Source: Paenibacillus ottowii
GTDB lineage: Bacteria > Bacillota > Bacilli > Paenibacillales > Paenibacillaceae
NCBI RefSeq assembly: GCF_006874425.1
Contig: NZ_VIJZ01000001.1
Coordinates: 496,001 to 560,000, forward strand
DNA length: 64,000 bases
Reading direction: 5' to 3'
The notes below the pieces were generated by a model, which saw only the letters and a list, made by a program, of their open reading frames with translations, did not search any database and had not been told where the DNA came from. The position numbers and the translations under genes were made by a program. Within the stretch, counting starts at the first letter, position 1. Each line of letters starts with the position of its first letter. Of this stretch, positions 6,221-40,931 are shown in pieces.

Positions 6221-8548
6221 TTGGAGAGCTTCAAACGTAAATCACCAGAGGAAATACTGGATTCGATTAACAAACTGCATCGGGGCAGACTCAAAATATA
6301 CATTGGTGCGGTCAGTGGCTCGGGCAAAACGTATCATATGCTGCAAGAGGGACAAACGTTGCAACATGAGGGAATTGATGTTGTGATTTGTGCGGTATCG
6401 ACCCTGCAGCGGCGTGAGACCGTGGAGCAGGTCGGCTCGCTGGAGCGAGTGCCCAGTATTCATTGGATGAAGGATGGCGAAGAACAAAAGGATCTGAATG
6501 TGGAAGCTTTAGTGGCACGAAATCCTGAGGTAGTGCTGGTGGACCATTTGGCACATCATAATCGAAAAGACGCCCCATTTCCAACAAGGCTGGAGGATAT
6601 TCGGTATTTGCTGGAGCTGGGCATTAGCGTCATTACAACGGTCAATGTTTATGAACTCGAAGGAATCACAGAGTGGGTATATCAGCTGACAGGTTTTGAA
6701 GCGGAATCTACAGTCCCTGTGGATACATTGGAGCTGGCGGATGAAATTCGTCTAATTGATGCCACTCCAGAAATGATTTTGGAGCGGCTGGCGAAAGGTT
6801 ACATGCATACGCCCAATCCTGAGATGTTTCACCGGGGAAATCTGGGTAAATTGCGTGAGCTCGCTCTGCGACTGGTGGCAGAGGATGTGAATGATTCGCT
6901 GGAACGGCACCGGGAGGAGTTAGGCTTGCACGGGGCGTCAGGAGCAGCGGAGCGTATTTTGGTGCCTGTCCAATATCATTGGAATGGGTCCATTTATGTG
7001 CGCAGAGGGGAACAGGTGGCTAAGCGTTTGGGTGGAGATATGCTGGTGGTCTCCTTTGTCAGCTCGAAGCGCAAGCTGTCCAAGGAATCAGCAGCCTTCA
7101 GGCGTTCCATTGAACAGCTGGCTGACAAGATCGGATCGACCTTTGAAGAAATCCCTCTCCTTTCCCGCAGAAGGCTGCCACGTCAACTTATCCATTATGC
7201 GGTGACTCACAATGTTACCCGAATTGTTATGGGGCACTCTCGGCAGACTCCGTGGCAGGAGTTGGTTAAAGGATCATTGGTGAACGGAATTTTAAAACGA
7301 ATGAAAAATATGGATCTGCTGCTGATTGCGGACCGAGCCGAACAGGAAGGGGAACGGATTTTGCCAACGATGAGACAGGAGGAAGGAGATACTGACCCGT
7401 ATCATCGTTTGAGCGTTGAGGAAGTACAGGCTGAGGAAGCCAAAATCCTACGGGGCAAGCTCAAGGTATACATTGGTGCTGCTCCGGGGGTCGGCAAAAC
7501 ATACACCATGCTGAGAGAGGGGAATGATCTGCTGGAAACCGGGATTGATGTGGTCATCGGATTGCTGGAAACGCACGGAAGAGCAGAAACGCTGGCCCAG
7601 GTAGGCTCTTTGGAGATGATTCCCCGTCAGTCTATTGAGCGTCATGGTGCATATTTGGAAGAGATGGACACTGAAGCTATCCTTAGGCGTAATCCTGAGG
7701 TAGTGCTAATAGACGAGCTGGCACATACCAACATTCCGGGAAGTCTGAAATCTAAGCGTTATCAGGATGTACTGGTCATTTTGGAACATGGTATTTCTGT
7801 TATATCCACAATGAATGTGCAGCATCTGGAGAGCTTGAATGACGCAGTAGAACAAATTACTGGTATTCGGGTGAGAGAGACTGTCCCTGACCATATGCTG
7901 CGTTTGGCCGATGAAGTACAGCTTGTTGATGTGGCTCCCAAATCGTTGCAGCAGCGTATGCGTGAGGGGAAGATTTACGATCCTGCGAAGGTGGAGCAGG
8001 CACTTAGTCACTTTTTTAAGCTGGGTAATCTGATTGCGCTGCGTGAACTTGCTTTGCGGGAATTGGCAGATGATGTAGATGAGCGGCTGGAGTCCTGGGA
8101 TCGACACGAATCACTTCGGGGACCGTGGCGCAGGGAGGAAGTGATTTTTGTAGGCGTGACGCTAACCGACAATGCTGAAAGGCTGATTCGCCGCGGCTTT
8201 CGCATTGCTTTTCGTCTGAAGGCTATGTGGATTGTAACTTATGTTCATGTTGGTGAACGTGTACCGGAGAAGCTGAACCTTCGTCTGGAACAACTAAAGC
8301 TGCTGACCCACCGACTGGGGGGAACCTTTGAAATTCGGCTTGCTTCCAGTCGACGCGAGATTGCCGACATTTTAATTGCTCCAGTGGAAGGATATTCGGG
8401 TACGCAGCTTATCGTGGGACAGTCTTCCCGAAGTAGCTGTTGGGGGAAGACTGCGGTTGTGCCGAGGATTCTCCGTCAAGCACGTCATATGGATGTTCTC
8501 ATCGTGGCGGATTATGATCCGGACATCAAGTTGGAAACAGATTATTAA
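6221..8548 (+). CDS. Kinase-less protein with two tandem KdpD sensor modules
   Basis: A 775-residue cytosolic protein made of two copies of the KdpD N-terminal sensor region, each followed by a USP-like domain. Copy 1 starts near residue 20: Walker A GAVSGSGKT at 29-37 and a Walker-B-like VVLVDHLAHHN near 103-113. Copy 2 has Walker A GAAPGVGKT at 419-427 and the canonical VVLIDELAHTN. The USP-like parts are roughly 245-370 and 640-765. There are no membrane segments, phosphoacceptor His domain or ATPase kinase domain, and no kdpFABC or kdpE nearby. In copy 1 the usual Glu after Asp is His, suggesting divergence. The KdpD USP domain binds c-di-AMP in Staphylococcus aureus, so a role in K+/c-di-AMP sensing is possible but unproven. 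The TTG start has GGGGAGGG 6 bases upstream. Confidence 0.85.
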   Translation: MESFKRKSPEEILDSINKLHRGRLKIYIGAVSGSGKTYHMLQEGQTLQHEGIDVVICAVSTLQRRETVEQVGSLERVPSIHWMKDGEEQKDLNVEALVARNPEVVLVDHLAHHNRKDAPFPTRLEDIRYLLELGISVITTVNVYELEGITEWVYQLTGFEAESTVPVDTLELADEIRLIDATPEMILERLAKGYMHTPNPEMFHRGNLGKLRELALRLVAEDVNDSLERHREELGLHGASGAAERILVPVQYHWNGSIYVRRGEQVAKRLGGDMLVVSFVSSKRKLSKESAAFRRSIEQLADKIGSTFEEIPLLSRRRLPRQLIHYAVTHNVTRIVMGHSRQTPWQELVKGSLVNGILKRMKNMDLLLIADRAEQEGERILPTMRQEEGDTDPYHRLSVEEVQAEEAKILRGKLKVYIGAAPGVGKTYTMLREGNDLLETGIDVVIGLLETHGRAETLAQVGSLEMIPRQSIERHGAYLEEMDTEAILRRNPEVVLIDELAHTNIPGSLKSKRYQDVLVILEHGISVISTMNVQHLESLNDAVEQITGIRVRETVPDHMLRLADEVQLVDVAPKSLQQRMREGKIYDPAKVEQALSHFFKLGNLIALRELALRELADDVDERLESWDRHESLRGPWRREEVIFVGVTLTDNAERLIRRGFRIAFRLKAMWIVTYVHVGERVPEKLNLRLEQLKLLTHRLGGTFEIRLASSRREIADILIAPVEGYSGTQLIVGQSSRSSCWGKTAVVPRILRQARHMDVLIVADYDPDIKLETDY

Positions 8549-8586
8549 CAAAGCCTAATTGATTCATAAATAGTTATATGCTGGTT

Positions 8587-8614
8587 ACCGGTTATTCACT
8601 GCTTCCATAGTATA
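8587..8614 (+). promoter_or_regulatory. Candidate sigma-K promoter for the His-rich gene
   Basis: AC at 8587-8588, a 17-base spacer and CATAGTATA at 8606-8614 match the sigma-K pattern AC-N16/17-CATANNNTA. It lies 31 bases before the start codon, which fits a short leader. This would mean late mother-cell expression. Confidence 0.45.
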
Positions 8615-8645
8615 TTCTATCTCAAAGAAATGGAGGCGAGATTGA

Positions 8646-8861
8646 ATGTTTAAACATCGTAAACATTTTTGTCATTTTCCAAAGCCAAGAAAACGTGTGA
8701 CTAAGAAAATCATTAAGGTGACTGTCATCAAGTTTAAGCCAAGATTTAAACATGAAGACTTTGAAAAGAGATGTCACTGCCGCAAACGTCGTCACCATCA
8801 CCATCATCACTGCCACCATCGTCATCATGAATGTCATCGTCGTCATCACAAATTCTACTAA
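8646..8861 (+). CDS. Small, very basic His/Cys-rich protein, possibly a spore-coat or metal-binding protein
   Basis: A 71-residue protein of unknown family. It contains 18 His and 5 Cys, with Lys/Arg making up much of the rest. The first two thirds alternate basic and aromatic residues (KHRKHFCHF near the start). The last third is a dense His/Cys tract: RHHHHHHCHHRHHECHRRHH. GGAGGCGAG lies 5 bases before the ATG, and a sigma-K-like promoter lies upstream. Low-complexity basic or His-rich proteins are common in Bacillales spore coats, and His/Cys clusters also bind Ni, Zn or Cu, so both roles fit. The opposite strand is also open but mirrors the His codons and has no ribosome site. Confidence 0.75.
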   Translation: MFKHRKHFCHFPKPRKRVTKKIIKVTVIKFKPRFKHEDFEKRCHCRKRRHHHHHHCHHRHHECHRRHHKFY

Positions 8862-8876
8862 GTTGAAGATCGTAGG

Positions 8877-8899
8877 AGGCGGGGCTAGACTGCCCGCCT
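8877..8899 (+). terminator. Hairpin after the His-rich gene
   Basis: AGGCGGG pairs with CCCGCCT around a 9-base loop. There is no T run after it, so termination is uncertain. Confidence 0.4.
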
Positions 8900-8923
8900 T
8901 CTCCTAGTACCAGGATTTCAGGA

Positions 8924-8946
8924 AAGTATTTGTACAAAAAATACTT
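8924..8946. promoter_or_regulatory. Perfect 8-base inverted repeat before the Tad operon
   Basis: AAGTATTT and AAATACTT are separated by 7 bases, and the right arm runs into the -35 element of the Tad promoter. This is the classic placement of a repressor operator. I do not recognise the regulator. Confidence 0.5.
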
Positions 8947-8973
8947 GCTCTAAAATAGGTGCTATGCTATCCT
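8945..8973 (+). promoter_or_regulatory. Candidate sigma-A promoter of the Tad operon
   Basis: TTGCTC and TATCCT are separated by 17 bases. An alternative extended -10 (TGCTATGCT) overlaps. The predicted transcript starts near 8980, giving a leader of about 100 bases before tadZ. Confidence 0.5.
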
Positions 8974-9000
8974 ACCAGTAAATAGAATTTCTGTGACGGA

Positions 9001-9052
9001 AGCACCGTTCACCAACCGTATGTACTTACGGATGGATGAGCGGTGCTTTTTT
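9001..9052 (+). terminator. Terminator inside the Tad operon leader (possible attenuator)
   Basis: AGCACCG pairs with CGGTGCT, an inner stem CCGTA/TACGG sits within, and six T residues follow. It lies between the predicted promoter and the first gene, so it could regulate read-through. If the promoter call is wrong, it is simply the terminator of the upstream gene. Confidence 0.7.
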
Positions 9053-9084
9053 GCGTTGTTCCGTTGGGAAAGGGGATGAGCGTT

Positions 9085-10242
9085 ATGGTTCCGGTAAAAG
9101 TGGTATTGGCCGTAGAAGATCGGGATTATATTGAACCACTGCTGAATTATGTACATGGAAGTGAATACGCCAGAAGGCTGAGAATAACGGCATTTTCGCA
9201 GCCAGAGGCATTTCACCAATACATGATAGAAACCAGTGGAATGAAAAGGCCTGAGGTGGTAGTAGGTGAAGCAGCTTTTCTGAATTTATGGACAACCCGG
9301 GAAAATGCAGATATTCCTTATTTGGTTTTATATGAGGGGGAACAAGTGAGCGAATATGAACAGCTTTTATTAAAATATCAGCCTTTATCTGAGTTGGTCA
9401 GTTCTATTTTGGAAACGGCGAGACAGAGATCGAATAGTCGGAAAAGCGTAAACAGTCAGGAAGGTGGAATGATTATTGGCATGGTAGCAGCTTCTGGTGG
9501 ATTGGGTAAAACAACGACCGCGCTCAATATGTCAAAGCAACTGGGCAATGAGGGATATTCGGTATTCTATTTGAATCTGGAAACGATGGATTCAAGCGCG
9601 TTGTTCACTGGTTCAGACGGTTCAAGCGGATCACAAGAAGAAGGACTATCTAGGCTGCTGTATGACCTCAAATCGGAGGGGAAGGAGGGCGCTTTATTAT
9701 CTATGGCTTCCTATTGTGTGCATCGCCCTGAAATTCAGGCAGATACTTTTCAACCTGTCTATAATCGCAAGGAATTGATGGATATGACTTGTGATGAAGC
9801 AAAAGAGCTCATTCGGACGATTGCTGAAAGCGGGCAGTATGATGTGGTAATCGTAGATGGTGATTCTGAACATGGTGAGCGGGCTCAAGCTGTACTTGAG
9901 GCCAGTCATAAGCTGATCTGGTTGCTGGCTGACGATTTAATGAGCATGCACAAGTGTGGATTATGGCTGGATGTTTTAGCAACCACGCAGCCTGAAGGGC
10001 TTAAAGCCATGATATGCAAAACCAGCTTTGTGGTGAATCGCTACATGGGAACTATGATCAACTCGTTACCTCGTGACTTTATAGAGCTAAACGGAGCGTT
10101 ACCCTATATCCCTTCATGGAAGCAAATGCAGCATCCTGAGCTGCTGCTTAGTTCACCGATTTATCAGCGGGAAATCCGCCATTTGTGCCGCGAGTTGTTG
10201 GATATGGAAAGCTCAGCACAACCGTCGGTTGCTTGGTCTTAA
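9085..10242 (+). CDS. tadZ: TadZ/CpaE-like ParA-family ATPase of the Tad pilus
   Basis: A MinD/ParA-type ATPase that in Tad systems localises the pilus machine to a cell site. It has an N-terminal receiver-like region of about 120 residues, then the P-loop ASGGLGKTTT followed by ALNMSKQL. Further on are VVIVDGDS (Walker B-like) and a C-terminal alpha/beta region. The P-loop lacks the signature Lys of the usual KGGxGKT, which may alter dimerisation. The ATG at 9085 is chosen because AAAGGGG ends 9 bases before it; ATG 9076 sits directly on that site. It is the first gene of the operon and tadA follows after 13 bases. Confidence 0.8.
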   Translation: MVPVKVVLAVEDRDYIEPLLNYVHGSEYARRLRITAFSQPEAFHQYMIETSGMKRPEVVVGEAAFLNLWTTRENADIPYLVLYEGEQVSEYEQLLLKYQPLSELVSSILETARQRSNSRKSVNSQEGGMIIGMVAASGGLGKTTTALNMSKQLGNEGYSVFYLNLETMDSSALFTGSDGSSGSQEEGLSRLLYDLKSEGKEGALLSMASYCVHRPEIQADTFQPVYNRKELMDMTCDEAKELIRTIAESGQYDVVIVDGDSEHGERAQAVLEASHKLIWLLADDLMSMHKCGLWLDVLATTQPEGLKAMICKTSFVVNRYMGTMINSLPRDFIELNGALPYIPSWKQMQHPELLLSSPIYQREIRHLCRELLDMESSAQPSVAWS

Positions 10243-10255
10243 GGGGATGATGAAT

Positions 10256-11503
10256 ATGAATGAGGAACAATTTAAGGCATTGCGCGCGGATATCCGTAAC
10301 GGGCTGGACGTAACCTCCTCAGTCAAGGATACAGATCTGGTACGGCATATCGAAAAGCGAATTCTAAATGATGTCGAGCTGGCGAGCTTAACTTCCCGAG
10401 AGAAGCACGCACTTGTCCGCAAAATGTTCAACTCTTTCCGTGGGCTGGATGTGCTCCAGCCATTGATTGACGACCCGACCGTTACGGAAATTATGATCAA
10501 CAGTCATCGGGAAATTTTTGTGGAGCGGGCAGGTGAGGTGATTCAGGTGCCCGAGCAATTCGAATCCCGCGAGCGGCTGGAGGATTTGATCCAGACGATT
10601 GTAGCTGGGGTGAACCGAATTGTAAATGAGGCTTCCCCCATTGTGGATGCCCGGTTAAAGGATGGATCACGCGTAAATATTGTACTGCCGCCGGTTGCTC
10701 TCAAGGGACCGACGATGACCATACGGAAGTTTCCCGAGCGTCCCATGACGATGGATGATTTGATACGAATGGGTGCGCTGGATGCAGAAGCAGCCGCTAT
10801 GCTCAAGGACTTGGTATGTAGCAAGTACAACATTTTTATAAGCGGCGGAACGGGCTCTGGTAAAACAACCTTTCTGAATGCATTATCCCAGTTCATCCCT
10901 TCATCTGAGCGAATTATTACAATTGAAGATTCGGCAGAGCTACAAATTGTGACGGTCCCAAACCTGGTATCCATGGAAACACGGAATGCAAACACCGAAG
11001 GGAAGGGAGAAATCACGATTCGTGATCTGATTCGTTCCTCCTTGCGTATGCGGCCCAACCGCATTGTGGTGGGTGAGGTCAGAGGGAGTGAAGCGTTGGA
11101 TATGCTGCAAGCAATGAACACAGGACACGATGGATCGTTGTCAACCGGTCATGCGAATAATATCCGCGATATGGTCAGTCGGCTGGAAACGATGGTGCTT
11201 GGCGGGGCAGAACTTCCGCTTGGAGTAGTACGGCAGCAGATCAGCTCGGCCATTGATATATTTGTTCATCTATCACGCCTACGCGACAAGTCCAGAAGAG
11301 TACTGGAAATTAGCGAAGTGATTGGCTTTGAAAATGGCGAGGTGACGCTGAATCCTCTTTATCGCTTCCGGGAGAGCGGAGAAAGTAAAGGACAAATTGT
11401 AGGGGGACTAGAACGTTGTGGCGGAGGACTGCAACATACTTTGAAGTTGCAAATGGCCGGGATCAAGCCGGAAAGCTGGCACAGGAAGGGAGTATCGATA
11501 TGA
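10256..11503 (+). CDS. tadA: TadA/CpaF-family pilus assembly ATPase
   Basis: Hexameric secretion ATPase that drives pilus assembly from the cytoplasmic face. An N-terminal helical domain is followed by the family block PTVTEIMINS and then Walker A GGTGSGKTT, Asp-box ITIEDSAELQ, and the catalytic Arg and His boxes (RPNRIVVGEVRG, GHDGSLSTGHANN). The length of about 415 residues is normal for CpaF. Three in-frame ATGs cluster at 10247-10258; the last is 9 bases after AGGGG and is preferred. The stop overlaps the start of the TadB-like gene (ATGA). Confidence 0.92.
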   Translation: MNEEQFKALRADIRNGLDVTSSVKDTDLVRHIEKRILNDVELASLTSREKHALVRKMFNSFRGLDVLQPLIDDPTVTEIMINSHREIFVERAGEVIQVPEQFESRERLEDLIQTIVAGVNRIVNEASPIVDARLKDGSRVNIVLPPVALKGPTMTIRKFPERPMTMDDLIRMGALDAEAAAMLKDLVCSKYNIFISGGTGSGKTTFLNALSQFIPSSERIITIEDSAELQIVTVPNLVSMETRNANTEGKGEITIRDLIRSSLRMRPNRIVVGEVRGSEALDMLQAMNTGHDGSLSTGHANNIRDMVSRLETMVLGGAELPLGVVRQQISSAIDIFVHLSRLRDKSRRVLEISEVIGFENGEVTLNPLYRFRESGESKGQIVGGLERCGGGLQHTLKLQMAGIKPESWHRKGVSI

Positions 11504-12291
11504 GAACAAGAAAGGCAACTGCCAAGCAAGTGTCACATGAGGTCCCTTCTCTGCCAGATTATACGGTGTATACCTTATCGACTGTACAAAAAAGTCTATG
11601 CATTCTTTTTAGTGGTGTGCTGTTTGCGATGATCGGATATCTATTTTATCACCAATGGATATTATCATTGCTATACGCTGCTGGAGCTGTGGTGACCCCT
11701 CGTTATTTTAGGAGGTTTTTGCTGCAACGACGTAGGTCTGCTTTAAGCATTCAATTCAAGCAGGCTCTATACTCGCTTTCATCTTCTCTTTCAGCGGGTA
11801 GGTCAGTGGAAAATGGGTTTCGTGAGGCTGTAGAGGATTTAAGGCTGCTTAGTCCAGATGGAGACCACGAATTGATCTTTGAATTTAACATTATTACAGC
11901 CTGCCTCGAAATCGGACAGCCTGTAGAGGCTGCTTTGCAGGATTTGGCTCGTCGGGCTCAGATGGAGGATATTACGAATTTTGCAGACGTATTTAGGGCT
12001 TGTAAACGAACCGGAGGGGATCTGGTAGAAGTCGTACGACGGGCTTCAAGTGTCATTGGTGAGAAGCTGGACATTCAGCAGGAGATCGGTGTAATGATTG
12101 CGCAGAAACGATTTGAATCTAGGGTTATGTTTGCAGCGCCTTTTTTGTTTGTTTTGTTTATGACAGTGACAGCAGGAGACTACATGATGCCCTTATACAG
12201 CGGTACAGGTATGATTTTATCAACTTTTTGTCTATCGGTGCTTGGTGGTTGTCTCGTGTGGATCAATCACATTATGAAGATTGAAGTGTAA
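11500..12291 (+). CDS. tadB: TadB-like inner-membrane platform protein (T2SSF domain)
   Basis: Polytopic protein forming the membrane platform on which the TadA ATPase works. Two hydrophobic segments lie near the N-terminus (about residues 33-70). A cytoplasmic helical T2SSF domain follows, with ALYSLSSSLSAGRSVENGF and GQPVEAALQDLARR. Two C-terminal helices end the protein (FLFVLFMTVTAG and MILSTFCLSVLGGCLVW). The ATG at 11500 overlaps the tadA stop by 4 bases and has GGAAGGGAG upstream. At 263 residues it is a little shorter than proteobacterial TadB. Confidence 0.85.
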   Translation: MRTRKATAKQVSHEVPSLPDYTVYTLSTVQKSLCILFSGVLFAMIGYLFYHQWILSLLYAAGAVVTPRYFRRFLLQRRRSALSIQFKQALYSLSSSLSAGRSVENGFREAVEDLRLLSPDGDHELIFEFNIITACLEIGQPVEAALQDLARRAQMEDITNFADVFRACKRTGGDLVEVVRRASSVIGEKLDIQQEIGVMIAQKRFESRVMFAAPFLFVLFMTVTAGDYMMPLYSGTGMILSTFCLSVLGGCLVWINHIMKIEV

Positions 12292-12303
12292 GGAGTGATG
12301 GGT

Positions 12304-13182
12304 GTGTTGATGTTGGTTTGTCTGGTCATGCTGGTTCTGCAAGTGGGAGGTTGGGTGGTGCTGAACCAAATGTACGCTGCTAAGTATGCACATTTTCGCC
12401 ATATGAAGCTGGAAGGACTGCGGCTACAAAAACTTTCGGTGCCATTTGTTCACATGCTTCATGTTTCACGTGCTACTCAAAGGCTGCCTTTGCTGATGTT
12501 CAAGCTTCAGCGATCGATACAGAAACTGTATGGTATGCGCAACAGTGGAGAAAAGACGATGCTTTTTCTGGCCGAAATGTTGGGTTACGGATATATGGTG
12601 GCTGCTGGTGGAGCATTAATATCGCTCATGTTGGGCGGGGAAGCGACTGGACTGGTGCTTGGCTTGGGGCTCGGTGTCCTGGTGCCAGTTGCGTTGGTCA
12701 AGGATCTGCTTGGGAAAGTACAGAAGCGGGATCAGCAGATTTTAATGGAATTGCCTGAACTATTGAGTAAAATAATGCTTTTAGTTGGTGCGGGGGAGAC
12801 GGTACAGCGGGCTTTGCTGCATTGTGTGGAACGAAAAGGGGAGGATACGGTACATCCATTGTATCGGGAATTGCGGCAGACAGTGGGGGAATGGAAAAGC
12901 GGCTATTCCTTTCAACAGGCATTTGAACATCTGAGCAAACGTTGTGGTATTCAGGAAGTGACGATATTTACAACGACAGTTTTATTGAATATGAGGCGCG
13001 GCGGGAGCGATTTTGTAATGGCTTTACGTGAGTTGTCTCAGACATTATGGAGCAAGCGGACTTCAATTAGCCGCACAAGAGGGGAACAGGCTTCTTCAAA
13101 ATTAGTTTTCCCGATGGCGCTAATCCTGCTTACGGTTATTGTGTTGGTGGGCGCTCCGGCTTTAATGATGATGAACATGTAG
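12304..13182 (+). CDS. tadC: TadC-like inner-membrane platform protein (T2SSF domain)
   Basis: Second T2SSF protein of the Tad platform, paired with TadB. It has an N-terminal transmembrane segment, a basic cytoplasmic stretch and central helices (MVAAGGALISLMLGG, VLGLGLGVLVPVALV). The T2SSF core follows (LPELLSKIMLLVGAGETVQRAL, GGSDFVMALRELSQTLW), then a last helix near the C-terminus. The start is uncertain: AAGGAG at 12290-12295 suits the GTG at 12304 (8-base spacing), while ATG 12298 is too close and ATG 12310 is 14 bases away. It begins 12 bases after tadB. Confidence 0.85.
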   Translation: MLMLVCLVMLVLQVGGWVVLNQMYAAKYAHFRHMKLEGLRLQKLSVPFVHMLHVSRATQRLPLLMFKLQRSIQKLYGMRNSGEKTMLFLAEMLGYGYMVAAGGALISLMLGGEATGLVLGLGLGVLVPVALVKDLLGKVQKRDQQILMELPELLSKIMLLVGAGETVQRALLHCVERKGEDTVHPLYRELRQTVGEWKSGYSFQQAFEHLSKRCGIQEVTIFTTTVLLNMRRGGSDFVMALRELSQTLWSKRTSISRTRGEQASSKLVFPMALILLTVIVLVGAPALMMMNM

Positions 13183-13191
13183 GAGGATAAA

Positions 13192-13386
13192 ATGATGACG
13201 ACATTAGTAGCAGGCAGTATTCGTAAATTGTACAAGGATGAGGATGGTTTGGGGACGTTAGAAATGATCCTGATCATTGCGATTCTGATTGCGGTAGCAA
13301 TTATTTTTAAGGATCAGATCAAGAAAATTGTAGAAGGGCTGTTGAAAAAGGCGGATAAAAAAAGTAACGATTTTATGGATTCATAA
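13192..13386 (+). CDS. flp: Flp-type class IVb pilin precursor
   Basis: The probable major pilin, 64 residues. A short charged leader ends in DEDG, followed by LGTLEMILIIAILIAVAIIF. Cleavage after that Gly would place Glu at +5, the hallmark of type IV pilins, and leave a mature protein of about 43 residues with one hydrophobic helix and a Lys-rich tail (KKIVEGLLKKADKK). The likely processing enzyme is the A24 peptidase encoded downstream. GGAGGATAAA precedes the ATG. Its stop shares a base with the next start codon (TAATG). Confidence 0.85.
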   Translation: MMTTLVAGSIRKLYKDEDGLGTLEMILIIAILIAVAIIFKDQIKKIVEGLLKKADKKSNDFMDS

Positions 13387-14054
13387 TGCAGCGCAAATTA
13401 GCACAAAAAGAGGATGGGAGCTTCTCCTTGGAAGCTTCCCTCGTCTTTCCCATTTTGCTGCTGGTCATTTTTGTAATGTTATTTTTTTGCCTGTACATAT
13501 ATCAAAAATCTATATTGGTGCAGGTTGCTTCTACTGCTTCAGAAAGAGCTGCTTACAGCTGGGATAACAGCTTTAAGGACCCACGTACAGGAGCTTTTGC
13601 GCAAGGACAACGGGATTCTCTCTATTGGCGTTTGAAGGATGACGTGATGTTAGCCGCTCTGTTTGGCTGGGCCAGAGCCGATAATCAGGAACGTGTACAG
13701 GTGCCGGGCGGCACTGGAGGAGGGGGGATACCTACTCAGAAGCTATCCAATGCAGCAAACAGAATGCCAATGGGCATGCAGGGGCAGATGGCATATGAGA
13801 ACAGTATAATACGCCGTAGGGTTACCACAGAGCTCAATAAGATGGTGAAGGTTCCTTTGCTGAATCAATTTTTAGATCAGACAGATTTACAAGGAAAAAT
13901 GAGCTCGGGTGTGGTAGAACCTGTGGAATGGATTCGTACGGTAGAGATGGTCCGTTATTATGGTGCAAAGTTTATGGGTAGAGGCTCAGGTGAAAAGGTA
14001 GATCCGTCAGTTGCAGGTAAAGTATTGATGCAATATGGGCAAAACGGTCGTTAA
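13386..14054 (+). CDS. TadE-like pseudopilin
   Basis: Minor pilin/pseudopilin of 222 residues. The short basic leader ends in Gly, followed by SFSLEASLVFPILLLVIFVML, giving Glu at +5 and a long hydrophobic helix as in the TadE family. The rest is an extracytoplasmic domain with a Gly-rich loop (GGTGGGGIP). Probably processed by the downstream prepilin peptidase. Translation is coupled to flp through the TAATG overlap. TadE-type proteins are thought to prime or cap Tad pili. Confidence 0.8.
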   Translation: MQRKLAQKEDGSFSLEASLVFPILLLVIFVMLFFCLYIYQKSILVQVASTASERAAYSWDNSFKDPRTGAFAQGQRDSLYWRLKDDVMLAALFGWARADNQERVQVPGGTGGGGIPTQKLSNAANRMPMGMQGQMAYENSIIRRRVTTELNKMVKVPLLNQFLDQTDLQGKMSSGVVEPVEWIRTVEMVRYYGAKFMGRGSGEKVDPSVAGKVLMQYGQNGR

Positions 14055-14070
14055 GGAGTAGGTAGCGGGA

Positions 14071-16311
14071 ATGTCACTGGAAAGGAGGAAGCGGGTGTTT
14101 GGTAAGGGACGTAATACAAAGGACGGGGAATCAGGTGCTGTCACGGTCTTCCTCATTCTGATTTTGGCGGTCATGTTCGGTTTTATTGCTGTATTTATTG
14201 ATTATGCGAGAATTGCTGCGTTGCATGTGCAGACCGAACGGCTGACCCATGCGGCGGTACGGTCAGTGATGTCTGCTTATGACCCGGCATTACAACAGGA
14301 GTACGGTTTATTTGCTTATGGTGAAGGCGGCGGAGAACAAATTATGGTCAAAGTGCTGAATGACAGTGCTCGGCGTACGGCGCGCGCGGAAACGCTGCCG
14401 CTTTTGAATATGAAGCTGGATTCCAGCTCCCTGCAAATGGAAAGGGAGCTTGGTAAATATGCCACATTCAACGAGCAGATCCGTGAAGAGATGAAGTATA
14501 AGGCACCTGTCGATTTTACGTTTGAAGTGCTCGAAAAGTTGAAGCCACTCTCTCAAAATATGAAGGAAGCTTCACACACGGTAGATTTGCTGAAACGGCT
14601 GCAAAAGCTGTATGACAGACGAGAAGGCAAACTGGATGACATGCTGGAGAAACAGCGTAAGGCAGGAGTATATATGGAAGAGGTTCGTAAACGGATTACT
14701 AAACAGAGGGGTGCATATATGCCTAATCAGTATATATGGGATCCACTTGAGGTTGTAGCCGATATTGCTGCTCAGTATAAGCATTACGTGCATGTATATG
14801 AGGATAACAAGAAGAGTGTGGACGACGTAAAAATCATGCAAATGGAGAAGTATGCAAGAAGGGCAAGAACAGCACTGGATCGCCTGCAACAGGTCATGGT
14901 TAAGGCTGGAGAGGAGCATGACAAGCTGCTTGTGGAAGCCCAAGATCCGTTGAATGAAGCCCGGCAGATTAATGAGGAGATGCGCAAAGTCATTGCCCAA
15001 TATAAGCAGAGGGCGGCCAATGCAGGCTATGACGAGATTTCCGCAGCCCCCACTCCAAGTGGAGGAGGCTACAATGCCGATCAGGCTGTAGGAAGTGCCC
15101 GGCAAAAGGCAGAGGATTTGTTGATTCCCGATAATGAGTTTGAGCAATGGGCAGCAGAAATCGAAAAGCAACGGACAGCTATAAATACTGCTAACAATAG
15201 AATAACGAGTATGATGCGTACCTTGTCCTTTTATACAGATCCATTTTTGAATGCAGACATGCTCAAGCAAGAAGTCGCTTCGACGCTTAAGGAGATAGAT
15301 AAATACTTAAATGCGTATGCTTGGACTGGACCCGCAAATGTACTCGACGGTGAAGCCAGAACGATGGACACGCGACGCGGTCCGGACAAAGAACGCAAGA
15401 AAATGGAAAAAGAGGCGAAAAACAAGCTCAAGCAAGCTTATCGGATCATTGAGGTTCTTTCTAAAGGTAAACAAAGCGCTGAGCAATTCCGAGAGGTCGA
15501 GCAGTATTACAATGAAAGTATTTTGTTTAATCAGTCCACAACCAGTCCATCTATATCTGCTGATTTGTCCTATGACACCTATGATGCAGCGGGGTCTTCC
15601 ATGGATAGTATGGATGGATTATACGAGGCGGCATCCAATTTACTGACTCAGCTGGGAGACGAGTTTTACCAGAACGAATATGCGCTTTCCTACTTTCATC
15701 ACGTAGACTTCAGCCGATTTGGCAGTTTGACCGGATCAGGTGGAAAGGTAGGGAATGCCGCACAGATTTTAGGGGATCAACTGGAAGTGAATAATCAGGA
15801 AGTTGAGTACATCTTGTATGGATTCCATAATCCGACGGGTAATCTGGCATCTGCCTATGGGGAAATTTTTGCTATGAGGCTTGCCATTAGAACGATGGAG
15901 GGATTAGTTAAAAATAGCTCAAAAGGTAACCCGTTGGTCGTATTGGCGGCAGCCTTGTTATATGGAGTAGAGAAGGCGATTGAAGACATGGTCATGCTGG
16001 CACAAAAAGGGGATGTGCCTTTGTCTGACTTTCTGAAATTTCGAATGACGTATAAGGATCATTTGCGATTGTTCCTGATGCTCCATAGCAATAATGAGCG
16101 GAAAATGTCCCGTATGCTTGCTCTGATTCGCCTGAATACAGATGTCAATCCAGCTGAGCGGCGTACGTATGTAAAGGGTGAAGTCAAGAATGGGATGAGA
16201 CTGTGGTTTCTACCGGGAGTGATGAAGATGCTTGGAGCTGCCTCCCAAGAAGGGGAGAGCATTAAGGGAAGTGTGTACTATGTCACGAAAACAGCGCATT
16301 TTTCCTACTAA
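14071..16311 (+). CDS. Large TadG-like membrane-anchored protein (DUF5702-type)
   Basis: A 746-residue protein with a pseudopilin-like N-terminus: basic leader, DGESGAVTVF, then one transmembrane helix (LILILAVMFGFIAVFI), Glu-poor at +5. The first 100 residues resemble DUF5702/TadG-like proteins (ALHVQTERLTHAAVRSVMSAYD, LQQEYGLFAY). A long, highly charged helical region (about 150-470) is likely coiled coil, followed by a globular C-terminal part. It probably sits outside the membrane as a structural or adhesive component. It lies between two TadE-like genes, 16 bases after the first, and its 3' end overlaps the next gene by 32 bases. Confidence 0.7.
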   Translation: MSLERRKRVFGKGRNTKDGESGAVTVFLILILAVMFGFIAVFIDYARIAALHVQTERLTHAAVRSVMSAYDPALQQEYGLFAYGEGGGEQIMVKVLNDSARRTARAETLPLLNMKLDSSSLQMERELGKYATFNEQIREEMKYKAPVDFTFEVLEKLKPLSQNMKEASHTVDLLKRLQKLYDRREGKLDDMLEKQRKAGVYMEEVRKRITKQRGAYMPNQYIWDPLEVVADIAAQYKHYVHVYEDNKKSVDDVKIMQMEKYARRARTALDRLQQVMVKAGEEHDKLLVEAQDPLNEARQINEEMRKVIAQYKQRAANAGYDEISAAPTPSGGGYNADQAVGSARQKAEDLLIPDNEFEQWAAEIEKQRTAINTANNRITSMMRTLSFYTDPFLNADMLKQEVASTLKEIDKYLNAYAWTGPANVLDGEARTMDTRRGPDKERKKMEKEAKNKLKQAYRIIEVLSKGKQSAEQFREVEQYYNESILFNQSTTSPSISADLSYDTYDAAGSSMDSMDGLYEAASNLLTQLGDEFYQNEYALSYFHHVDFSRFGSLTGSGGKVGNAAQILGDQLEVNNQEVEYILYGFHNPTGNLASAYGEIFAMRLAIRTMEGLVKNSSKGNPLVVLAAALLYGVEKAIEDMVMLAQKGDVPLSDFLKFRMTYKDHLRLFLMLHSNNERKMSRMLALIRLNTDVNPAERRTYVKGEVKNGMRLWFLPGVMKMLGAASQEGESIKGSVYYVTKTAHFSY

Positions 16312-17275
16312 TCAGCATCTACGCCAGGTTTGTGGACAGGAGCAGCGTGAACAAGGAAGTATTGTTTTAGAAGCGTCACTGGTGCTGCCATTGTTTTTAT
16401 TCTTTATTATTTTTCTCATTTATATGGTCCAAATGACGCTGGTATCTACAGCCTTGCAGACTACTGCTTCAGAAGCGGTTAAGCAGGTTTCGGCTAAAAT
16501 CTATCCCGTATCTCTAGCTGTGGAGGCGGCGTCCGCGAAAATAGATGCAGCCCACGAACCGCTGGATGAACTGCCTAAGTTATCCGTGAGTGAATATGCA
16601 AGCCAATTCGCTGCCCAACTGCCACCTCCAATCGGTGATTGGGTAGAAAGTGCTGTTCAAGGCGGCAAAAAGCCACTGGAGGAGCTAAAGGGACGCTTGA
16701 CGGAGGCTGTACTTGATCCTGTGCTGAAACCGATGCTAAAGCCTTTTATGGAGACAAGCATTCTGGAGTATGAACGTGTCCATATAACGAGCGTGCATAT
16801 ACCCTCTCTTACAGAAACTAAGGCCCCTTATTTTAGAGTAGAGCTATCGTATGAGCTACCGATGAAGGTCCCCTTTCTGTATCGCAACATTGTGCTCCAA
16901 GCTGCAGCCGAGGAACGTCTTTGGATCGGCGATACAGGAGAGGGAGCAGGTACAGGTGATGCGACAGGGGATAAGGATGCGAAGAATTCCATACAGCTGC
17001 TCGTCAAACCTGAACCTGCTGTGAAGGGAGTTTACAATTTGATCAAGGCCAAGGTTGAACCCGGGACGAATGCAAGCCTTTCTGTACTTTATAAGTCAGG
17101 TGAAAGCACGGCTCAGCACTTGGGCTGGGCCTCGGCTGATGCAGGTGGGATTATTGAATGGAATTGGTTCGTGGGAACGAACACGACACCAGGTCAATGG
17201 AGCTTTGTGATTGAAACGGAGGATGGCCAACGTATCGAGGTTCCGTTTTCTGTGCAGAAGACAACTGATGGATAG
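16280..17275 (+). CDS. Second TadE-like pseudopilin with beta-rich C-terminal domain
   Basis: A 331-residue protein. Its leader ends QREQG, followed by SIVLEASLVLPLFLFFIIFLIY with Glu at +5, so it is a type IVb pseudopilin. The middle is amphipathic and helical (EEL KGRL TEAV region). The last 100 residues look like an immunoglobulin-type beta domain (KVEPGTNASLSVLYKSGE and WNWFVGTNTTPGQW near the end), suggesting a tip adhesin role. The ATG at 16280 lies inside the previous gene's end and has AAGGGAAG upstream. Downstream, 91 bases separate it from the peptidase gene. Confidence 0.75.
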   Translation: MSRKQRIFPTNQHLRQVCGQEQREQGSIVLEASLVLPLFLFFIIFLIYMVQMTLVSTALQTTASEAVKQVSAKIYPVSLAVEAASAKIDAAHEPLDELPKLSVSEYASQFAAQLPPPIGDWVESAVQGGKKPLEELKGRLTEAVLDPVLKPMLKPFMETSILEYERVHITSVHIPSLTETKAPYFRVELSYELPMKVPFLYRNIVLQAAAEERLWIGDTGEGAGTGDATGDKDAKNSIQLLVKPEPAVKGVYNLIKAKVEPGTNASLSVLYKSGESTAQHLGWASADAGGIIEWNWFVGTNTTPGQWSFVIETEDGQRIEVPFSVQKTTDG

Positions 17276-17366
17276 GCGAAATATAGACGTTTAGAGATAA
17301 CTATGATTGATGGAAAAGGGTTGGCAGTCCTACAAATTTCTATTTTTATAAAGGGGAAAGATCACA

Positions 17367-17879
17367 TTGACGTGGATGTATATTGTGTGCGGAATTCTGC
17401 TGACGATTGCGCTGGTCACGGATTTAAGAAGCATGAAAATCCCTAATAAGCTTACAGTGCCTGGCATAGCAGTAGGCTTGCTGTTCAATACTCTGTTTGG
17501 GGGCTGGCACGGTTTTTTATTTGCTGTTGCTGGTCTTGGAACAGGCTTTGGATTCATGCTGATTTTGTACTGGATGGGAGCTATTGGTGCAGGAGATGTA
17601 AAGTTGTTCGGCTTAATTGGAGCATGGACAGGTGCTGCTTTTGCGTGGCAATCGGCTCTATATTCGATTTTTTTTGCAGGCATTATTGGTATAGGGATTT
17701 TACTATGGAGGAGAGAAACCATCATGAGATTGCGACGTGTGGCGTTTAATTTAGGAGGACTTTTCCTATTTCGTAGCGGCAAGGCGCTGATCAGTGGGAG
17801 AGAAGCGCATATCAGGTTTCCTTTTATGACGGCAGTCATTCCGGGGGTGGTCAGTGCTTATCTTTACTTCTTGTCATGA
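17367..17879 (+). CDS. tadV: Prepilin peptidase, A24 family (TadV/CpaA)
   Basis: Membrane aspartyl protease that removes the leader from Flp pilin and pseudopilins. At 170 residues with about five or six membrane segments, it is the short form without the methylase domain. Both catalytic aspartates are visible, in VTDLRSMKIPN and in the GxGD motif GAGDVKLF. The TTG start follows AAAGGGGAAAG; ATG 17376, three codons on, is the alternative. It completes the processing part of the operon. Confidence 0.85.
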   Translation: MTWMYIVCGILLTIALVTDLRSMKIPNKLTVPGIAVGLLFNTLFGGWHGFLFAVAGLGTGFGFMLILYWMGAIGAGDVKLFGLIGAWTGAAFAWQSALYSIFFAGIIGIGILLWRRETIMRLRRVAFNLGGLFLFRSGKALISGREAHIRFPFMTAVIPGVVSAYLYFLS

Positions 17880-17941
17880 CGTGTCCGCTTTGGGAGATCA
17901 TGCTACCTCAGGAAATAAGAAAGGGTTAAGGAGGTCATGAA

Positions 17942-19720
17942 TTGTTTGGTTTAAGCAGGGATTTTGCCCGGAATGGCGGGACCTTTATGATTCTAAACAA
18001 GGAAGGTGGGCTCAAGACCGATGATTTAAATTCTGTACAGACCAGAATGTTGACTAGTAATCGGATTCCTGGTCTGCTGGAACTTAGAATAAAAGAAGTC
18101 GATTTTCAGATCGAGTTACATTACGATATTTCGGGGAAACGTATGCTTTCCCAAGTATGGAAAGGTGGGAGTGTATCGACTTCTGATTTCTACCGAATTC
18201 TCTTTGAAGTAGCAGATACTCTTCATCGTAGTCCGCAATATATGTTAAATATCCGCCAGTTTATGTTGCACGAGGATTACATTTTTGTAAGCGGGTCGGG
18301 TACAAGGGAGACCGTCAGTTTAACCTATATTCCTTTGTGCAGTGTACAGTATCCAGAACAAACAGGCAGTTATTTTAAACAGATGATTATTCGTTTGCTG
18401 ACTCGTGTGGCTCACGCTCAGGGAGGATTTATACAGCGCATACTTGATCTATGCGATAGAAATGAATTTGAGGTGGGTGCGTTAAAGGAATTACTGTTGC
18501 AGGGGATGGCGGCTGGTGAACAAAGCGTAGGCGGTCAGGATGAGGATAAATCATCTATTCATTCCTCTCATACCCTACAGGGTAACTATACAGATCGTGG
18601 CGAAAGAACGTACAGGCAAGAGCACCGGGAGACTCTGCAGGAAATCCAGGAGCTTAAGCGGGTCAATCAACTCAAGCAGTCTATAAAACCTGAAGAGAAC
18701 GTCGAGGTAGGAACCGACGAAGAAATGGAAGATGCGGAGCCTAAATTGCAACAGTATAAAACATACATTGCTCTCGGATGTCTGCTCGCCTCGGCTATCG
18801 TTTGGCGCTACATTTATTTGGATCATCCAGAGACAGTGCCCTTGCTTATTTCAATTGTGCTGACTTTGGTACTTGTCGCTGTTGCTTATATAAGCTGGAT
18901 GGGGAAATTAGAGCGTAATCGAGCTTCAGCTCATCTTTATAGTGAAGCAGTTCCTGTATTGGATTCGGAATGGTTAGGAACCACACCTTCAGCACAACGG
19001 AAAAATGACCGTTATCAGGTAGATAAGTTGACTGGGTTTGTAGCAGGACGCCATCGCCAAGATAAACAATCCTTCGATTCGAGTGATCAAGGGCGGGAGA
19101 GCTGGCGTTGGACTCTTCCAAACTCAGAATCTAAAGGCGTGGGAAACCAAGCGGCGGGGGATCGAGAGAAAGTAAGTGCGAATTATGATTTACACGAGCC
19201 TTCGAGGAAAGGTATCGCGTGTGTAAATGAATTGGACGACAGTGATACCAGCGAGGCTTATTATAAGTCCTTATCCGGTGTCACGGAACTACTCAATACG
19301 ATGTCCAAGCAGGAAACCGTGCTGCTTCGTCCGGATCAAGAGATACAGAGTCCACCTAATCAGCATTCGCCAATTGCTTGCTTGGATCGTAAGTTGCCCC
19401 GAAGTGGAGAGACCGAGCGCATACGGTTGCAGCCAGACCAATTCGTTGGAGGCAGCTTTATCATCGGAAGAGATCCACAGTTGGTCCAGTTTGTAGAGCA
19501 CACGGATGGAGTCTCCCGTTCTCATATTGAGCTTTGCATAGTTGCAGGAGGACAAAACCATATGGTTAAGGATTTATCCTCGACGAACGGAACTGTGCTG
19601 AATGGAGAGCCTATGGTGCCTTATAAGGAGTATGCAATAAAGGAAGGAGACACTTTTAAAATCGCCGGAGTCTCTTATACTTATCGGTTGGACTCTTTTA
19701 AATCCTCCGATGCATCTTGA
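17942..19720 (+). CDS. FHA-domain membrane protein of the Tad locus (DUF6382-like N-terminus)
   Basis: A 592-residue protein. The N-terminal domain of about 200 residues resembles the DUF6382 region found with Tad loci in Firmicutes. It is followed by a charged linker, two transmembrane helices (about 280-325), a long polar linker and a C-terminal FHA domain with IIGRDP, VSRSHIEL and STNGT. FHA domains bind phosphothreonine, so the pilus machine may be under Ser/Thr kinase control; no kinase is encoded next to it. The TTG start has AAGGAGG 7 bases upstream. It is the last gene of the operon. Confidence 0.82.
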   Translation: MFGLSRDFARNGGTFMILNKEGGLKTDDLNSVQTRMLTSNRIPGLLELRIKEVDFQIELHYDISGKRMLSQVWKGGSVSTSDFYRILFEVADTLHRSPQYMLNIRQFMLHEDYIFVSGSGTRETVSLTYIPLCSVQYPEQTGSYFKQMIIRLLTRVAHAQGGFIQRILDLCDRNEFEVGALKELLLQGMAAGEQSVGGQDEDKSSIHSSHTLQGNYTDRGERTYRQEHRETLQEIQELKRVNQLKQSIKPEENVEVGTDEEMEDAEPKLQQYKTYIALGCLLASAIVWRYIYLDHPETVPLLISIVLTLVLVAVAYISWMGKLERNRASAHLYSEAVPVLDSEWLGTTPSAQRKNDRYQVDKLTGFVAGRHRQDKQSFDSSDQGRESWRWTLPNSESKGVGNQAAGDREKVSANYDLHEPSRKGIACVNELDDSDTSEAYYKSLSGVTELLNTMSKQETVLLRPDQEIQSPPNQHSPIACLDRKLPRSGETERIRLQPDQFVGGSFIIGRDPQLVQFVEHTDGVSRSHIELCIVAGGQNHMVKDLSSTNGTVLNGEPMVPYKEYAIKEGDTFKIAGVSYTYRLDSFKSSDAS

Positions 19721-19744
19721 GTAAAGATTAAATGAATATATGTT

Positions 19745-19779
19745 AAGAAGAGGCCTATTGTATTCTGGGCTTCTTTTTA
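19745..19779 (+). terminator. Terminator of the Tad operon
   Basis: AAGAAG-A-GGCC pairs with GGGCTTCTT and is followed by a T run. Confidence 0.75.
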
Positions 19780-40649: not shown

Positions 40650-40840
40650 CGGCGCCGTGTGAGGAAACTATGGTTTCCTTCATTGCGTTGTTAAAAGGGA
40701 AGTCGGTGTGAATCCGACACGGTCCCGCCACTGTAAATGGAAACATGTTCGCTAGCCCTGCTTTATGTGCCGCCAAGCATATAAAAGCATATCAGGACAT
40801 GCATCTTCCATAAGTCAGGATACCTGCCCATCTGCCTGTC
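40650..40840 (+). promoter_or_regulatory. Cobalamin (B12) riboswitch
   Basis: The core elements appear in order: AAAAGGGAA near 40693, the GGTGTGAATCC element, GGTCCCGCCACTGTAA at 40721-40736 and the B12 box AAGTCAGGATACCTGCC at 40812-40828. A long arm is inserted between the last two. Binding of adenosylcobalamin would favour the downstream terminator and shut off btuFCD-cobTUS-cobQ. The outer boundaries are approximate. Confidence 0.93.
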
Positions 40841-40931
40841 ACCATAATCCTTCGAGGAAAGGATGACGTGTTCGCAGTGACTGTCCATGCGGAAAGAAGC
40901 TGCCCGCCTGCATACAATCTGTGCTTACGTG

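Follow-up and report, generated by a model that had tools for sequence, protein, structure and literature searches.

A predicted leader attenuator ahead of the Tad/Flp pilus operon of Paenibacillus ottowii

The Tad/Flp locus and its leader

The window considered here is the whole stretch of 64,000 nucleotides at positions 496,001 to 560,000 of contig NZ_VIJZ01000001.1 of Paenibacillus ottowii (assembly GCF_006874425.1). Reading frames and Pfam matches place a unit of ten genes for a Tad/Flp pilus, all on the plus strand, at about 9085–19720, and ahead of it lies a short leader with a promoter-like site, a small hairpin and an intrinsic terminator. This conserved leader was missed by the earlier note on this DNA and is the most interesting feature found here; the note had the locus begin at 8924, where no gene of the unit lies, and overlooked the promoter-like site and the terminator at 8945–9052.

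The unit begins with tadZ (9085..10242), a ParA-like ATPase (Pfam AAA_31, 28.2 bits against a cut-off of 27) whose probable start is set by a ribosome-binding site. It is followed by the motor ATPase gene tadA (10256..11503; T2SSE 8e-56, CpaF 4e-94) and the platform genes tadB (11500..12291; T2SSF 2e-10) and tadC (12304..13182; T2SSF 2e-6), all three with inferred starts, by flp for the major pilin (13192..13386; Flp1_like 3e-20) and by the pseudopilin gene tadE1 (13386..14054; TadE 1e-9). Next come a gene for a 746-residue DUF5702 protein with one N-terminal hydrophobic segment (14071..16311; DUF5702 4e-8), tadE2, with inferred start, for a pseudopilin with a conserved C-terminal domain (16280..17275; 20.2 bits with Pfam TadE, under the cut-off of 22.9), an A24 prepilin peptidase (17367..17879; Peptidase_A24 1e-18) and a protein in which DUF6382 (2e-24), hydrophobic segment(s) and FHA (3e-11) follow one another (17942..19720). 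The Pfam search of each protein thus confirmed the ten-gene unit that had been read from the sequence. The two pseudopilins with glutamate at +5 were likewise found, since a glycine followed by glutamate at +5 can be read by eye in TadE1 and TadE2, as well as in Flp, and is absent from the DUF5702 protein.

A competence or type IVa pilus identity was rejected, since family and PDB searches place the ATPase nearest to Tad/CpaF motors and not with competence or type II secretion: TadA scores 301 bits with the TadA family (TIGR03819, under that model's own cut-off of 373) versus 65.8 for ComGA, 55.0 for GspE and 46.3 for PilB, and CpaF motors are its closest solved relatives in the PDB search (4e-94). 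The genome has two T2SSE matches, and only TadA of this locus lies above the cut-off. With a CpaF/TadA-type motor, paired TadB and TadC, a Flp pilin and an A24 peptidase in one locus, this is, judging from the sequences, a Tad/Flp machinery in a Paenibacillus-type bacterium and a locus of known kind. It shares with Tad/Flp (type IVc) pili such as the Caulobacter Cpa system the motor, two platforms, Flp, TadE-like proteins, A24 peptidase and ParA-like TadZ, whereas inspection of the ten genes showed neither a secretin nor a CpaB/RcpC-like gene, and the DUF5702 and DUF6382-FHA proteins and the predicted leader attenuator are additional here. The search for a secretin was confined to these ten genes; monoderm Tad systems without one are already known, according to a survey (PMC6668835). 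Defence-system models gave no match for the four proteins scanned.

The locus is ordinary for its relatives. TadA was found at E <= 1e-30 in 294 of 296 sampled genomes of Paenibacillales and is 96% identical in the relative G014. A check of synteny on loci picked by TadA or DUF5702 matches returned the ten-gene order in nearly all of them, namely in 13/13 named Paenibacillaceae loci (L003–L011, L013–L016) and in 32/33 loci of the same genus (L141–L173; the exception, L153, has no FHA match), and in many of the loci compared the same oppositely oriented gene follows the unit. The loci L141–L180 were picked by DUF5702 matches, so that the 8 of 59 relatives lacking DUF5702 lie outside this sample. 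DUF5702 itself occurs in 51/59 relatives as against 25/398 genomes sampled across the phylum; the FHA and DUF5702 proteins, extras in the earlier note, are not peculiar to this locus and belong to the usual set of the relatives. The literature searched held no account of when Paenibacillales Tad loci are expressed, and nothing describing DUF5702 or DUF6382.

The leader is compact. Its promoter-like site (8945..8973, plus strand) reads TTGCTC, a 17-base spacer with TG before the second hexamer, and TATCCT, a layout repeated upstream of tadZ in relatives. The predicted intrinsic terminator (9000..9052, plus strand) runs from AAGCACCG to GGTGCTT followed by six T, has counterparts in relatives, and ends about 32 nt ahead of the likely tadZ start; roughly 20 nt of leader precede it. 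The fold of 8960–9060 has a z-score of −5.0 versus shuffles. The trinucleotide CGG stands outside the terminator stem and can pair with CCG to give a hairpin, P1 (8993..9012, plus strand), made of GTGACGG, the loop AAGCA and CCGTTCAC, with about 5 bp. The core of P1, CGGAAGCACCG (8997–9007, plus strand; CGG-AAGCA-CCG), is the conserved motif and is overlapped by the 5' arm of the terminator. Since the 3' half of P1 is this 5' arm, only one of the two hairpins can form. Rfam gave no match at the leader, either in the window or in eight loci with the element, and a permissive Rfam search of 8540–9120 returned only unrelated weak matches. In the literature searched, neither this leader nor its kind was found described.

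Conservation and base pairing of the leader element

The comparison covered 54 Paenibacillales tad loci (the window, L003–L011, L013–L016, L023, L141–L174 and L176–L180). L175 was excluded, its tadA match being only 28% identical, and L012 and L017–L082 other than L023 are non-Paenibacillales or uncounted. The 9-mer GAAGCACCG lies at most 1.5 kb upstream of tadA, just before tadZ, in 50 of the 54. It is preceded by CG in all 50, so that CGG is invariant, and it should be noted that the 9-mer searched for did not include the CGG. For L152, the comparison was shortened by an internal T-run. Three of the four loci without the 9-mer have particulars of their own: L023 carries CGGTAGCACCG; L174 has a split tadA, with the leader 50 kb distant at L259; and in L179, where no tadZ was found, the genome carries an element on the contig and strand of the locus, at a distance of about 45 kb on the upstream side, which would fit another insertion. 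In 38 of 39 further genomes, picked from among the matches listed, the element stands 1197–1439 bases before tadA; in the remaining one, G500, the two are on different contigs.

The pattern CGGAAGCACCG-N20..50-TGCTTTTT was found in 250 of the 296 genomes of the order and in 36 of its 48 genera, and none of the matches listed for these genomes was to the reversed pattern. Across the phylum it occurs in 9/398 genomes; 7 belong to the same family, and in G309 and G450, which make up the rest, the motif does not close the hairpin. The P. ottowii genome itself has one copy; a narrower pattern gave no match there, its gap limit being smaller than the length of the window's own hairpin. A covariance model (R1) run over 54 sources gave clear matches in Paenibacillales only; outside the order it reached 26.9 bits (E 0.0018) at L017 from Blautia and 18.5 bits (E 0.32) at L062. 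The L017 hairpin (L017:8407-8488, GGAAACACCG...CGGTGTTTTTTT) stands about 1.4 kb before tadA and shortly past the end of a frame, and because it has no CGG/CCG hairpin we regard it as probably an ordinary terminator, less likely a distant relative of the element. Ten matches were seen in viral contigs, and only that of L272, a 61-kb contig, combines a strong fold with closure of both arms on the motif; this good copy of the element precedes an open frame.

Promoter-like sites precede 50 of 72 leaders, as compared with a shuffled mean of 19.9, and in 41 of these 50 the second hexamer ends 22–29 nt before the CGG. These 72 mutually dissimilar leaders, which also served for the pairing test, are 73 representatives minus L239, where the motif lies outside the hairpin; a fold filter had removed 6 of 120 elements (L171, L176, the second copy of L253, L240, L007 and L015), and earlier versions of the test used 105 and 73 rows. 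The first flanking position, next to CGG/CCG, pairs in 63/72 leaders (shuffle mean 40.7, 0/5000 shuffles as high), and the second in 42/72 (shuffle mean 32.6, 30/5000). Among the 73 representatives, the first pair is GC in 31, AT in 21, GT in 5, CG in 3, TG in 2, TA in 2 and a mismatch in 9. The excess holds for tad leaders alone (20/20, mean 16.5) and for non-tad leaders (22/29, mean 12.1), and at three plasmid-type loci AGG/CCT replaces CGG/CCG with pairing kept. In 60/72 leaders, one and the same flanking base can pair in P1 and in the terminator alike, and such leaders are predicted to have what an attenuator has, a terminator and a mutually exclusive alternative hairpin. Overall, sequence comparison makes the leader a well-supported conserved element.

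Several observations weigh against a Tad pilus operon controlled by such a switch. P1 is short: the third flanking position pairs below chance (13/73, shuffle mean 23.5), and the first is unpaired in 9/72 leaders. Seven slid or crossed controls were run, and the strongest, with the second position moved along by 1, gave a small excess of its own (28/72 versus 22.1, 215/5000). The shuffles ignore relatedness, and the covariation figures therefore overstate the certainty. Four of the elements removed by the fold filter (L007, L015, L171, L176) are real tad leaders that deviate in the 3' arm or the T-run. No element was found in L180, and 46/296 genomes lack the exact pattern. Most extra copies of the element come from searches whose pattern already includes the motif, and their conservation is therefore partly built in. 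Finally, deletion of Tad-like genes in Paenibacillus sp. NAIST15-1 is reported to have left motility unchanged.

Attenuation and its alternatives

We consider it probable, at about 60%, that the Tad/Flp pilus operon is controlled by this conserved leader attenuator, as its sequence and predicted folding suggest. By default, the terminator would form, a leader RNA of roughly 75 nt would be released and the tad operon would be off. Relief would come from a factor acting in trans, for which an RNA-binding antiterminator is the likeliest candidate, that holds P1 or reads the same bases in the elongating complex; with P1 held, the terminator could not form and RNA polymerase would read into the tad operon. 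The pilus would then be built in the manner of other Tad pili, where TadZ positions the machine, TadA drives TadB and TadC to add Flp, and the peptidase cuts the pilin subunits; initiation, capping or anchoring of the fibre may fall to the TadE-like and DUF5702 proteins, and the FHA protein may couple assembly to threonine phosphorylation. The likely use of the pilus is surface attachment.

Of the alternatives, the simplest takes the terminator as a fixed damper or insulator that gives constant low read-through or shields the operon from upstream transcription. The leaders that entered the count have strong stems and T-runs (median fold −28.3), which suit such a role, and no extra factor is needed. 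A fixed terminator, however, leaves unexplained why CGG is conserved outside the stem, why the flanks of P1 covary and why 11 bases stay constant in a hairpin that otherwise varies freely, and we consider this explanation unlikely.

The covarying flanks would also suit a DNA palindrome, and CGG-N5-CCG, just past the transcription start and at a fairly fixed spacing from the promoter-like sites, could be an imperfect operator bound by a repressor or activator, with the overlap with the terminator secondary. Such an operator is quite unlikely, given that the conserved centre AAGCA is asymmetric, that most leaders retain T-runs and the 3' arm and that the AGG/CCT variants keep their pairing.

In an improbable third reading the element would recruit a NusG-type antiterminator, in a Gram-positive parallel to RfaH at ops or to LoaP. 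The pili, conjugation-type secretion and surface proteins encoded behind the element resemble the targets of RfaH, and the P. ottowii genome has a LoaP. CGGWAGC corresponds to bases C3–C9 of ops with W at position 6 (ops as given in PMC5995543); this seven-base likeness is weak, and an RfaH/ops site was rejected: the core CGGTAG is matched, position 6 being W, whereas the TG pause bases at 11–12 are missing. LoaP was rejected as a general partner on its distribution, as it exceeds the cut-off in 53/296 genomes versus 250/296 with the element, and the single LoaP of the genome (G000:C12:13031-13540, L265) heads a polyketide-type biosynthetic cluster. The dfn leader controlled by LoaP resembles ours in placing a hairpin and an intrinsic terminator ahead of a long operon, whereas known LoaP leaders, according to PMC12691694, use a UNCG hairpin upstream of and separate from the terminator; here, the loop is AAGCA and the hairpin overlaps the terminator, so that a LoaP-controlled leader was rejected as well. 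The general NusG is compatible with the data.

A very small riboswitch, or a stable small RNA acting in trans after termination, would accord with the short terminated transcript predicted and the invariant loop, and is very improbable in view of the about 20 nt before the terminator without further strong conservation, the mostly non-metabolic character of the scanned downstream genes and the lack of an Rfam match.

Returning to attenuation through P1, a likeness among known systems is with EutV and other ANTAR regulators, where, according to PMC3369931, the 5' part of a terminator is overlapped by a small hairpin whose loop has conserved bases, and the same short sequence stands before several operons. 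ANTAR sites as described there carry a pair of hairpins whose hexaloops have A at the first and G at the fourth position, whereas our leader has one hairpin with the pentaloop AAGCA and about 20 nt before it, and an ANTAR target RNA was therefore rejected. The conAn system of pLS20-type plasmids likewise acts on termination to control conjugation genes of a Gram-positive host; according to PMC8955417, it consists of a protein and an RNA heading one operon, in contrast to the short leader found here at several operons and on chromosomes.

The genes behind other copies of the element are diverse. Forty copies were fetched, mostly as seemingly non-tad, of which four proved to be tad (L215, L257, L259, L260); the first downstream gene was scanned with Pfam for 14 of the 36 non-tad copies. 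The matches were to a TrbC/VirB2 pilin followed by PrgI and a VirB4-like ATPase (L244), a TraG/TraD-type coupling protein (L219), Transposase_31 exactly at the cut-off (L212), the PD-(D/E)XK transposase family (L255), Uma2 (L217), S-layer homology (L221, L262) and DsbA-like (L245), spermine-synthase-like (L253) and transport permease (L227) families; the first downstream genes of L222, L225, L230 and L247 had no Pfam family above the cut-off. By eye, further copies stand ahead of relatives of the genes at L244, L219, L212, L247 and L225, and L229, L256, L258 and L261 are among the copies without a clear gene close behind. In L224, L225, L226, L228 and L231, the element precedes similar-looking secreted, helix-rich proteins; the one scanned is that of L225.

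One replicon carries several copies. Over the 981 bases compared, a 366,576-base replicon of G014 matches plasmid pPPM1a of P. polymyxa M1, and pPPM1a has four model matches within 50 kb; the annotated genes directly behind them encode a TraM-recognition protein, a hypothetical protein, TrbC/VirB2 and a thioredoxin-domain protein. That a single replicon has the same leader sequence at several operons speaks for a trans-acting factor common to them. PLSDB types pPPM1a as non-mobilizable, with MPF_F mating-pair genes, so that it can be called conjugative by inference only.

We tentatively extend this to an order-wide antitermination regulon, possible rather than probable, in which one trans-acting antiterminator would read the hairpin (N)CGGWAGCACCG(N) and jointly open chromosomal Tad pili, plasmid conjugation-type secretion, Rpn/Uma2-type nuclease and S-layer-homology genes. 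If it exists, the regulon would parallel RfaH/ops in Gram-positive bacteria, with an RNA switch as its basis, and would add a new class to the Gram-positive antitermination systems; one factor serving both Tad pili and plasmid secretion would link surface attachment to gene transfer in soil and plant bacteria. The leader switch, if real, would in any case offer a direct handle on the expression of the nearly universal Tad loci of Paenibacillales.

Proteins of the unit, insertions in tadA and neighbouring features

In the FHA protein, residues G509, R510, S525, H528, N549 and G550, which we take to be the phosphothreonine-binding face, are invariant in 14/14 aligned proteins, which is consistent with phosphothreonine binding. 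T459, N-terminal to the domain, is also invariant in all 14 and, judging by FHA proteins elsewhere, may be a possible self-ligand. The phospho-regulation that the earlier note proposed gains support from these residues at the level of sequence; of the two transmembrane segments it gave the protein, both can be seen as hydrophobic stretches by eye, and a Kyte-Doolittle scan marks one. The DUF6382-FHA pair is also found in the type VII secretion components TseJ and TsfJ, the latter likewise with two predicted membrane helices, and one type VII variant adjoins Tad genes in Paenibacillus, as stated in PMC11217815; in contrast to TseJ and TsfJ, the protein here closes a Tad operon. Inspection of the open frames listed for the region, with no family search run over the full window, showed no type VII genes.

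For the C-terminal part of TadE2, called Ig-like in the earlier note, which suggested an adhesive tip, conservation was seen across 11 aligned proteins (alignment A1, which leaves out L011, L013 and L015, where the domain is absent), and TadE2 is too short for it in 3/13 relatives. The TadE2 profile had no sequence match in the PDB, and the DUF5702 profile matched only helical or coiled-coil chains there, which is uninformative.

The tadA gene was found in two pieces in 7 of 12 re-searched genomes (G162, G688, G473, G559, G479, G671, G629); the 12 had been picked for weak, multiple or no TadA matches or, for G500, for an element elsewhere. The pieces meet around residues 290–306 (in G479, the first piece runs to 318, with stops) and lie 15 to 109 kb apart in the six genomes with both on one contig. 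The loci concerned include L257 (G688), L259 with L174 (G162) and L267 (G473). Large serine recombinases adjoin the break in G162 and G688, and the first 20 kb of the G473 insert, which is a prophage, encode a serine integrase, RecE, a DnaD-like helicase loader, RusA and a methyltransferase. Splits recurring at one place mark tadA as a repeated target of insertion, in one case or more by a prophage, comparable to comK in Listeria, and suggest that mobile elements also meet the Tad pilus; the literature searched had no description of insertions in tadA.

Three further features of the window may be recorded. Just upstream of the leader, 8646–8861 encode a small protein of 71 residues rich in His, Lys and Arg, with tblastn matches 59–76% identical in the closest relatives. 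Positions 6221–8548 form one open frame of 775 residues in which two tandem KdpD-like sensor halves can be made out by eye. At 40654–40845 lies a cobalamin riboswitch, the sole Rfam match in the window.

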